From positions 715,770 through 779,769 of the forward strand of contig BCKL01000008.1 of NCBI GenBank assembly GCA_001600635.1: a stretch of 64,000 nt of DNA. The letters run 5' to 3'. The notes beneath the pieces were generated by a model. It was given only the letters and a program-made list of their open reading frames with translations. It had not been told where the DNA came from and ran no database searches. Position 1 is the first letter of the stretch, and each line of letters opens with the position of its first letter. Shown piece after piece: positions 17,732-64,000 of the stretch. The translations under genes and the position numbers were made by a program. This stretch comes from Leucosporidium creatinivorum (taxonomy: Eukaryota > Basidiomycota > Microbotryomycetes > Leucosporidiales > Leucosporidiaceae).

Positions 17732-17809
<78 letters not shown>

Positions 17810-17909: not shown

Positions 17910-17945
<36 letters not shown>

Positions 17946-60136: not shown

Positions 60137-61189
60137 GTCGGTTTTTTTTTTGTATTGCTTGAAATTTGCAGTCACTATCTGTAAGCGCTACGAAACGTGT
60201 AGGGGAATAGGAAAAATGGAAAACCGAGAACAGCGGGCTCATAAGCCCCGCTAGCGCCAACCGCGCACCGTTTGCGGGCGACCAACTCCAAACCTGAAGC
60301 TCAATCGCATCGCAGTACCGTCCCGAGGAGTGGAATGAGAATGAGAGATTAATTCCAGCTAGCTACAAAAAGAGCAATCCCACTCGAGAGTGAGACCCGC
60401 TGGACCACTAGGTTCTCTGAGACCTTGACCAAGACTGTACCTACCAATCCACAGCGAGCGCAGCCGCCTCGGGCGACGCCGAGCGGGGAGAGGGGTCGCC
60501 AGGAGAGGGGAAGGGAGGAGATGTGAGGAGTGATGGAAGACAGGGATGATGGAGATGAATGAGTGATGCGAAATACTATCTGCTACCTACCCTGGCGAAG
60601 AAGCGCGTCACTGACGCCGCTTCCACCGCTTCATCCGAGCTGCCCACAGCCGAGCAGCGCCCTTGATCAGCTCGTGATGCCACGCTTGCTCGAGGCCTCG
60701 TCTCCGCTGCAGAGAAAGCAGTAGCAATTCCGGCGGGCGCGAAATGCAGCTGCCGCCTTTCCACCAGCCGTATCGAAAGGGTAAGCCGCCAGCAACACCG
60801 TGAGCAGCCAGGCCGCTGTGGAAAACAGGTGCTCGGCCGCTGTGAGAACCCCAGGTGAGGAGCACCTGTATTTGAGCTTGAAAACAGGTGCTGTGCTCCT
60901 GTGGGTTGATACACCTGTATTATACATAGGCGTTTTTTCAAAATACAGGCGGTCATTTTTCTAATGCAGAATTAGCGATTACTAGTGAATTGGAGGCTCG
61001 GCCGAGGCTCGCTACTTTCTTGTAGTAGAGTAGTTTCACTTCGCCGTCGCGCAGGTAGCGAGCTGTAGTGATAAGTAAGCTGTGGTGAAATGCAGAAGCG
61101 CTCTAAACATCTACTACAGCCTCTACAGGCGCCCTCCCCCTCGCCCCCCTCCCCCGCTCCCCTCCTCCATCCTATCCATCCCCGCACTT
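60137..61189. other. Gene-poor region with hairpin repeats
   Basis: About 1.05 kb without a gene I can support. It contains a run of T at about 60141-60150, a GA-rich stretch around 60480-60560, and the hairpin-repeat cluster at 60828-60960. A minus-strand frame ending at about 60600 and a Ser/Pro-rich frame ending at about 60440 are open but unrecognised. Confidence 0.5.
60828..60960. repeat. Hairpin-repeat cluster 1 (ACAGGTG/CACCTGT arms)
   Basis: Several copies of ACAGGTG or its complement in about 130 bases, including CAGGTG-AGGAG-CACCTG (about 60853-60869) and ACAGGTG-CTGTG-CTCCTGT (about 60884-60902, one mismatch), plus single arms at about 60834 and 60912. Arms of 6-7 nt with 5-nt loops match the units of cluster 2 at 63261-63415. 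Confidence 0.75.
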
Positions 61190-62145
61190 CTAGCTCAGAG
61201 AGGCGGTAGCTGTGGGTGGGTAGAGTCAGCAGGCGAGCTACCGAGTCGATCAGTGTACAGCAGCACTCACCAGAGCCTCTCTCCTTCTCTCTCCTCCCCA
61301 CCTCGGCTCGGCTGCTCTTGAAGTCGCCAATGGGCGGAAGAGGTGGTCGAGGGGGGTCAGAGAGGATTGTAGGAGGGTGCAAAAGAGTCAGCGAAGCTCT
61401 GCCGTCTACTCAGCTGCACAGAAGACTCACCTTGGCTGACCTCGCACCTCGGCGCTCCCAACACGCCAAGTTGAGGTGCTCTGCTGGAACGAGGAGGACG
61501 GGGAAGGGTCAGCGATGTATACAAAACACCTTGAGTTGCTTCATGATACCCCTGCGTGCCCTCATCGTCTCCTGATGCTCCCTTCGCTCAGCTCGCCTCG
61601 CGCTCGCGTCCAATCCACTCACCTACAGTCATCTCATGACTCTCGCTCGGTCGTCTAGTAGTCTTTAGTAGTAGAGGAAGCGAGGACGACGTCAGCTGCC
61701 TCTCCTACATCTACCAATCGTCTGCTCGAGCCTCCAGAGATGAGAGCGCCTCGACAGCTCGCTCCAAACTCAGCCTCAGACCCGTCTGGGAGGGCACAGA
61801 CAGCGATAACGCGTTCCCCTCTCTTCGTGTACCCTCCCGCAAGCCCTCCACTACTCTTAAACCGCCCAGCAGAAGCGCAAACCCGACTTGAGAAGCGACT
61901 GACGCCACCAGCCCTCGCTGCTCTTGTGCTGTTGTAGGAGAGTGCTGAGGTGCAGAAAGCGAGTCTAGGGGTATGTTAAAGCGAGTTGTTGCCGATATGA
62001 CGAGGCGAGACGAGCCAGAACGGTGTGGTAGGAGGGAGAGAGCTGAGGCGGGCAAGGCTGCTCGATTTCGCTAAGTCCCAGCTCAGGCTTCACTGCTGAT
62101 TAGTCCGTCTTCTGGTCGCCCAACCAGCTCTCAATCACAGGCCAT
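61190..62145 (-). CDS. Predicted seven-exon small protein, unknown family
   Basis: No function recognised. Exons 62139-62145, 61715-62057, 61623-61645, 61530-61571, 61431-61483, 61271-61316 and 61190-61209 total 534 nt and join in frame to 177 residues. Introns of 81, 69, 51, 46, 114 and 61 nt mostly have GTGAGT-like donors, several with CTGAC/CTGAG branch sites, as in the certain genes of this window. The protein begins MASLPASALSLLPHRSGSSR, possibly a mitochondrial presequence, then has a helical middle (GLVASVASQVGFALLLGGLR; LRLSLERAVEALSSLEARAD) and a charged C-terminus (NLACWERRGARSAKSSRAEV). The first exon (GTGATT donor) and the 61646 acceptor are the least certain; a shorter 56-residue start at 61632 is an alternative. 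Confidence 0.42.
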
Positions 62146-62232
62146 TACTTCTCACACGTGTGTGCTCTGGTGCACGCGCCCCCTCGGCTATAAAGACTAC
62201 GGTTCAGCTCGCTCGGCGCGGAGGGCAGTATC

Positions 62233-62831
62233 TGGACTCAACATGGTACAAGTACAAGGCCGGACTGTACCGTAACTTACTGCGGAAAATACAGCCCCTA
62301 TCTCAAGCCTGACAGTACAATCACAGCTCCTCGGATCCGTCAGGCGCGTAACCGAGTGTCGAAATTAGCCAGCTCGGCGCTCGGCGAGTGGTCTACGAAG
62401 CTCGACTTGGTCTTCAAACAGCTCGAGAGCTCACAATCGATGGTCAAGTAGTCGAGTGGTGAAACTCAGTCTTTCTCTGCTCATTCAAAGCTCTTGAGGC
62501 GGGTTCAATTCACTTCGAAGTTCACTCGTTATCCTTCAGCGCCGGCTTTTCTCGCCAGAAAATTTATATTGACATGTACATTTTGTCAGGAGTTCATCCT
62601 TTTGCTGCGCTTAACTTACTACACGACTTCTTGCTGCCTGCATGTAGCACAACATGTGATAATTTGCCAGCTCGGCGTTGACCTCGCGACCTTTTCTCCC
62701 TTGTTCCGGCCGATGCAGATACACGATGTACCTGTACTGAGCTGTATCGCGTAACATTGCGGGGTAAACCGGTACAATACAAGTACAGAGGCCGAATCTT
62801 GCAGGTTTTGTACCATGTTGACTCCAGGTGC
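62233..62831. mobile_element. Putative ~600-bp inverted-repeat (MITE-like) element
   Basis: A 20-nt inverted repeat bounds the interval: CTGGACTCAACATGGTACAA at 62232-62251 and its near-complement at 62808-62827 (19 of 20). The direct heptamer CAGTATC occurs just outside both ends (62226-62232 and 62832-62838), like a target-site duplication. Similarity between the two ends extends loosely inward about 80 bases. There is no coding capacity. The interior is AT-richer than its surroundings. Class cannot be assigned. Confidence 0.45.
62441..62520 (+). pseudogene. tRNA-like relic (Leu/Ser-type box A and box B)
   Basis: TAGTCGAGTGG at 62449-62459 fits box A of long-variable-arm tRNAs, and GGTTCAATTC at 62502-62511 fits box B at the spacing expected for Leu or Ser tRNAs. 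The T stem and acceptor do not pair, so it is probably a relic or the head of a tRNA-derived element, not a working tRNA. Confidence 0.35.
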
Positions 62832-63260
62832 CAGTATCGCCGAGAGGCGCTACGACGACACAGGCGGTGCGGGGACACCGCGGATTCATCCCAGCGAGTA
62901 TTATTAACTTCCTTGTACAATAAAAGGTCTTTAGAGCCTCAGGAGTCGTCTCTGTAGCTCGCCAACTTGAGAGGAGTGGGAGCGCCTTCATTCCTCGGCG
63001 TTTCTGCGTTGAAGGAGAGATAGCTGTAGCTCGTGCTCACTCTCAAGCATTGAATTTGCCATTCGCACTGCCCTCAAGCCATCGCTACCTCAGTCCCATG
63101 CTTGGGAGGCCTAGAGAAGCTTCGCCGAAGTGTTCGCCGAGAAACGTCTCCAGCGCAAGAGCTACAGATGCTGCAAGCTTCTGCTTCGAGTCAGCGGCTC
63201 TATGGAGCTATATCTTCATCCCTGTGGCCTTCTGTACCTCATCAAGTCCTCCCGCGCCAA

Positions 63261-63415
63261 ACACAGGTGGTCAGCGGGAAACAGGTGTCCCTCCGCTGTG
63301 GCTTAAACAGGTGGTCAGCACCTGTGAGTTACTACAGCGGCGCACCACCTGTTTCTGTAAAATACAGGTGGTCTGCACCTGTGGATCTGCCCCACACAGG
63401 TGGTCAACACCTGTG
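63261..63415. repeat. Hairpin-repeat cluster 2 (ACAGGTG-N5-CACCTGT)
   Basis: Three near-identical hairpins: 63307-63325 (loop GTCAG), 63364-63382 (loop GTCTG) and 63395-63415 (loop GTCAA, 8-nt arms). Additional half-units lie at about 63262, 63281 and 63345. Loops share GTC at the first three positions, so the units are related copies. The cluster lies immediately beyond the stop codon of the LINE open frame on the minus strand. Confidence 0.85.
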
Positions 63416-63435
63416 AAATACAACGGCTAGATTTC

Positions 63436-64000
63436 TCACGGTGCAAAGGTCACGAGCGACTGGCACTGCTCGTCGTCCAGGCCATCATCTTTCCCCTTTA
63501 GGTAGCTCAACGAGCGCTTCTTAAGCTCCGTCACTAGTAGCCCACGCTCCTGCGCACTTGCTGTGCAGTACCGGAAGATGTGAGCCTCGGTCTCGTTCGG
63601 CGCGCCGCAGCCCGAGCAGTCCGAGTTGCTGTCAAACGCTCACTCACTCGCTCGGCTGTCGGTAAGCACTGAGCCCGAATCTGTAGCTGTGTCTGCGCGA
63701 CGTAAGACGAGACAGCCCGAAGGTACGGATACGCGGGCGGAGCAAAGTTCAGTCGGCCGAGCTCGGCGATGGCTTGCTTCGACTTCGGCGGTAGAAGCGC
63801 CTTCTGAGTTTCAACAAGTTGATCTGTAAGCACAGTAGTGATGTTTCCCTCAATCCAGCCGCCATCGATCTGAAGTGCCAAGCGCTGGAGCATAAAGTCG
63901 GGAAAGGGAGCAGCTAGCGTCGCCGAGAGGTGGCCGTCCTTTGCCAGTTGGTCAGCTCGGTCGTTCAGCAGAGAGTCACTGTCCTCTGCCTCCGTATGCG
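63436..64000 (-). mobile_element. LINE (non-LTR retrotransposon) 3' end: RNase H and Cys/His domain
   Basis: Only the C-terminal part is inside the window; the reverse transcriptase would lie beyond position 64000. On the minus strand the first residues read HTEAEDSDSLLNDRADQLAK, the final motif of an RNase H domain. A helical linker follows (LQIRAQCLPTAERVSE), then the zinc-binding motif DCSGCGAPNETEAHIFRYC (C-x2-C-x9-H-x4-C) found after RNase H in I, R1 and Tad1-type LINEs. The open frame ends at 63436-63438 (LVTFAP). RNase H and zinc motifs sit in different frames, with one shift near 63650, so this copy appears inactive. Family within LINEs cannot be settled without the RT domain. Confidence 0.75.

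Follow-up and report, generated by a model that had tools for sequence, protein, structure and literature searches.

Paired palindrome arrays at an apparently interrupted LINE frame of Leucosporidium creatinivorum: probable subterminal regions of a single-copy CACTA/EnSpm-type transposon

The window, a stretch of 64,000 nucleotides covering positions 715770-779769 of contig 8, was analyzed together with the genome of Leucosporidium creatinivorum (27.7 Mb in 63 contigs). Its right end is occupied by a minus-strand coding region that extends past the window border (Table 1) and presumably belongs to a LINE. In this neighbourhood, an RNase H profile (PF00075) was matched with 28.4 bits (cut-off 25.8) and an endonuclease profile (PF03372) weakly with 18.9 bits, under its cut-off of 24.5; the order of the domains is LINE-like. 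A frame of 692 amino acids past the window end (L006:2533-4608, minus strand, corresponding to 65263-67338 in window numbering) is presumably the reverse transcriptase, judged from motifs recognised by eye, and yielded neither a Pfam match at E values up to 5 nor a match to PDB sequences at E values up to 1. It is on these motifs, the domain order and a C-terminal CCHC motif that the presumed LINE identity is based. The LINE has further frame breaks upstream, and DNA and protein searches of the genome found only the window copy. The RVT_1 profile occurs at 16 places in the genome, none of which is the window LINE, and a comparison of 15 of these 16 stretches with the reverse transcriptase, RNase H, zinc-finger and C-terminal pieces of the LINE revealed no convincing match (best E 0.02, leaving out the LINE's own overlap in L057). 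Elsewhere in the window, two uninterrupted G runs were detected, one of 75 nucleotides at 17735-17809 and one of 35 at 17910-17944.

The LINE frame ends with ...SLVTFAP-stop. As the first-pass annotation of this DNA had stated, its TGA (minus strand, 63438-63436) is situated close to a group of short palindromes, at a distance of 21 bases. Three hairpins with a common loop start had been reported there, and three exact ACAGGTG-N5-CACCTGT units were indeed recovered at 63307-63325, 63364-63382 and 63396-63414, with the loops GTCAG, GTCTG and GTCAA, respectively. The array is larger than these three hairpins and also holds a half-site and, at 63281 and 63334, two units with two mismatches each. 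A second array of the same palindrome, absent from the first-pass annotation, lies approximately 2.4 kb away. Across both arrays, three of the eight units are perfect, while three of the five imperfect ones share the same departure in one half, CCGCTGT instead of CACCTGT (63281, 60825 and, inverted, 63334). The spacers between neighbouring units comprise 7, 8, 11 and 13 bases on the right and 7 and 14 on the left; all six vary in length and sequence, and the palindrome cores are conserved. The earlier statement that the repetition is not due to chance was borne out by a search allowing three mismatches, which gave ten matches in the window compared to 2.1 expected, a number reached by none of 100 shuffles. 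Eight of these ten matches fall in the right array and in the second array at 60825-60902.

Table 1. Features at the right end of the window (window numbering)
Feature	Position	Strand	Remarks
Putative LINE, far-side frame	60608..60793	-	61 codons and TGA stop; first codon starts at the G shared by the two TTG copies
Target site duplication CAA, left copy	60793..60795
Probable CACTA/EnSpm-type non-autonomous DNA transposon	60796..63443		2,648 bp; 9-bp perfect terminal inverted repeats, 3-bp target site duplication, subterminal arrays; LINE frame resumes
Left terminal inverted repeat CACCGTGAG	60796..60804	+
Left subterminal array	60825..60951		19-bp palindromic units at 60825, 60851 and 60884; half-sites
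Half-site of the left array	60912..60918
Degenerate half-site ACAGGCG of the left array	60945..60951
596-bp repeat with inverted ends CTGGACTCAACATGGTACAA	62232..62827		nested in the transposon
Right subterminal array	63263..63414		half-site 63263-63269; 19-bp units at 63281, 63307, 63334, 63364 and 63396
Right terminal inverted repeat	63435..63443	-	minus strand reads CACCGTGAG; includes the TGA ending the LINE frame
Target site duplication CAA, right copy	63444..63446
Presumed LINE coding region before the insertion	63447..64000	-	RNase H, C-terminal CCHC motif; extends past the window

Both arrays lie just inside an inverted repeat, CACCGTGAG...CTCACGGTG, which bounds the segment 60796-63443 (2,648 bp). 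This repeat is short, as it is perfect at nine of nine positions and patchy thereafter, and it is bordered by CAA on either side. From the inverted repeat to the first palindrome arm, the distance is exactly 20 bp at both ends. When pairs of points in the window were drawn at random, 167 of 200,000 draws had, within 75 bp, an inverted match of 9 bp next to a 3-bp duplication, and six of 200,000 had it at equal distance. The query ACCGTGAG-N20-ACAGGTG, which includes eight of the nine letters of the inverted repeat, had two exact matches in the 27.7 Mb, and these face each other at the element ends. With up to two mismatches, 27 matches were obtained, the two exact ones and 25 with one or two mismatches, but since the reversed control gave 38, the 25 inexact matches are at chance level. 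Searches of the assembly found neither a second copy of the 2,648-bp element nor a partner sharing its ACAGGTG motif.

The TGA that terminates the LINE frame is located within the inverted repeat CACCGTGAG of the apparently inserted element. If the insert and one CAA are left out, the frame continues with ...SLVTFAGGLPFRYGWWKGG..., and a stop follows after 61 codons, the far-side tail reading GGLPFRYGWWKGG...HHELIKGAARLW. As chance leaves 30% of the 60-codon stretches sampled from the window without a stop, the openness of this tail alone is weak evidence. Scored under the codon use of the LINE, the tail reached 0.14 bits per codon, compared to 0.17 in the zinc-finger part of the LINE, its other five frames scored below zero, and 2.9% of the open 60-codon stretches of the window attained 0.14. 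The putative LINE frame is apparently interrupted by an insertion and resumes beyond it. These data bear on the proposal that the palindromes are structured repeats in the 3' UTR of the LINE itself, where its reverse transcriptase would recognise them. It fits this proposal that the right array begins so near the LINE stop and that, in folding, its minus strand surpasses all of 200 shuffles (z -3.7). On the other hand, the stop is part of a 9-bp repeat that recurs in inverted orientation 2.6 kb away, next to the second array and with CAA on both outer sides, the LINE frame goes on past the insert, and the left array folds equally well (z -4.5, again ahead of all of 200 shuffles). Because any palindrome array folds well, folding strength does not discriminate between the readings, and the fold scores do not establish whether hairpins arise or play a part. 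We regard a LINE 3' UTR structure, as suggested by the first-pass annotation, as highly improbable, the array being inside an apparent insertion that has its own inverted repeats and target site duplication. Likewise, the array probably does not lie between the true stop of the LINE and its 3' end, as the observed stop is within the inverted repeat of the apparent insertion.

The distribution of the palindrome in the genome was determined at several levels of stringency. With up to one mismatch, ACAGGTG-N5-CACCTGT was found at five places, all within the two arrays. Exact arms 0-25 bases apart are present at six places; four of these are at the element, and outside the locus there are only two single pairs. 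The element contains 13 exact 7-base arms, all of them in the outermost 123 bp of its left end and 181 bp of its right end, compared to two in the 60,795 bp that precede it in the window and 11 in 136,443 bp elsewhere (a non-random set of slightly overlapping genome stretches). The first-pass annotation had also considered a mobile palindromic repeat, which had to be dropped as worded: individually mobile palindromes should be dispersed, and no unit with at most one mismatch occurred outside the two arrays. Instead, the arrays seem to be part of a mobile element. Another conceivable explanation is an array of E-box-like (CAGGTG) regulatory sites for a host transcription factor that was duplicated in an intergenic region. 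Conserved cores between unconserved spacers would be in line with this explanation, and so would the similarity of the two arrays, which align in direct (score 97) as well as in inverted (score 74) orientation, while shuffles gave a mean of 23.6 and a largest value of 48. However, it accounts neither for the inverted repeats and the CAA duplication nor for the equal spacing at the ends and the interrupted LINE frame, and the two single exact-arm pairs are all that the genome offers outside the locus. A host regulatory array is considered highly improbable.

Taken as a whole, the locus is best explained by a single-copy, non-autonomous transposon of the CACTA/EnSpm type that is inserted in the C-terminal coding region of the LINE and whose right subterminal region is the reported array. 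To this reading, we assign a probability of roughly 86%; that the element arrived by transposition is inferred from its architecture. Characteristics of CACTA/EnSpm (CMC) elements found here are terminal inverted repeats with CAC/GTG tips (CACCGTGAG/CTCACGGTG), a 3-bp target site duplication (CAA/CAA) and direct and inverted subterminal repeats near both ends. Duplications of 3 bp are made not by CACTA elements alone but by Harbinger transposons as well, so that a cut-and-paste transposon of another superfamily (Harbinger, Plavaka-like or undescribed) might be considered. According to PMC12730594, PlavakaB elements have target site duplications of 2 or 3 bp and CATCA..TGATG ends; CAC..GTG ends combined with subterminal arrays are unlike these and fit EnSpm, which makes another superfamily quite unlikely. 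A Plavaka profile search of the genome gave no match, but it was run without a positive control and does not demonstrate absence.

The assignment to CACTA/EnSpm allows comparison with described systems of this kind. For Puccinia, a study published in 2025 (PMC12730594) describes EnSpm families with 5'-CAC..GTG-3' ends and 3-bp target site duplications. The window element resembles these fungal families in both respects; what separates it from them is that the families described there encode a transposase and several of them additionally a TET/JBP gene, whereas the window element is non-autonomous and present as a single copy. In the subterminal regions, there is a likeness to plant elements. 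The soybean element Tgmt* possesses direct and inverted subterminal motifs, with two and 12 stem-loops at its two borders, and a 3-base duplication (PMC2613891). In common with Tgmt*, Tgm1 of soybean and En/Spm of maize, the window element has stem-loop motifs near both ends, in unequal number, together with a 3-base target site duplication (PMC2613891). By contrast, the Tgmt* motif is TTGGCAG/AATCTTACAG and not ACAGGTG, Tgmt* has a transposase, and the soybean and maize elements, which reside in plant hosts, carry 13-bp CACTA inverted repeats (PMC2613891). Among the papers searched, none was found on fungal EnSpm/CACTA elements with subterminal repeats or on basidiomycete CACTA elements with 3-bp duplications and terminal inverted repeats, which does not imply that none is in print. 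The window element adds to a known kind of mobile element and is otherwise of ordinary transposon anatomy.

Most likely, the ACAGGTG palindromes serve as binding sites for a transposon-encoded protein, the counterpart of plant TNPA/TNP1. This protein would pair the transposon ends, and a tnp2-type transposase provided in trans would cut at CAC/GTG. The formation of hairpins itself need not matter for such a mechanism, since binding of a dimer explains the palindromes equally well. Hence, the protein-binding palindrome array proposed in the first-pass annotation comes close to our preferred reading in so far as the arrays are CACTA-type subterminal repeats, but binding as such is putative. None of the 11 open reading frames of at least 90 amino acids within the element had a Pfam match over the cut-off; three weak matches had E values of 0.019-0.096. 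In the genome, the tnp2 profile (Transposase_21) was matched once, on contig 59, with about 46 bits (45.8-46.6, cut-off 28.6), although the match spans only positions 22-97 of the 213 positions of the profile. It is enclosed by a candidate CACTA element of 5,897 bp end to end (L059:1960-7856), the transposase stretch of which was found as one copy in the genome. The ends of this element are 30-nt inverted sequences, 83% complementary, that start with CAC[A/C]GAG..., have CAC...GTG tips and are flanked by TGC on both sides. This pair of ends was chosen for its CAC...GTG tips from 17 inverted repeats, and a stricter first screen demanding the same first four letters had missed it, giving four other candidates with 2-bp duplications. 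The element on contig 59 is thus a good candidate but not proof.

The two elements have CAC...GTG ends and a 3-bp duplication in common. Unlike the window element, the one on contig 59 shows the Transposase_21 match and has 30-nt ends of another sequence, of which only the first letters are shared (CACCG and CAC for the two ends). A few short words recur close to its two ends, among them TGTCGCC/GGCGACA, with four of four occurrences within 112 bp of an end. An ACAGGTG array was not found there, a single arm in 9 kb being at chance level, and without such an array the element would belong to a different family. No convincing similarity between the two elements was revealed either by translated comparison (best E 0.016 over 11 residues) or at the DNA level (best E 0.56). 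One might speculate that the window element represents an orphan CACTA family with a 19-bp E-box-like palindrome as end code, recognised by a host bHLH-type protein or cross-mobilised by the contig 59 element via the CAC...GTG tips, but this is unlikely.

The probable CACTA-type element was apparently itself the target of an insertion, as it contains a 596-bp repeat with inverted ends. For this repeat, 12 other copies with 72-94% identity were found in the genome. Eight of the 12 are flanked by an exact 7-bp target duplication, which is present neither at the other four nor at the window copy. The repeat is possibly similar to hAT elements, as hAT elements with 7-bp target site duplications are named in PMC12730594. 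From the nesting it follows that the LINE would have been first, followed by the CACTA-type element and then by the 596-bp repeat, and this nested series may be used for relative dating. The array next to the LINE invites a misleading reading, which can now be corrected, as the view of the hairpins as a LINE tail is most likely wrong. If the preferred interpretation is right, the element provides, in this fungal genome, a clear counterpart of the subterminal stem-loop arrays of plant CACTA transposons.
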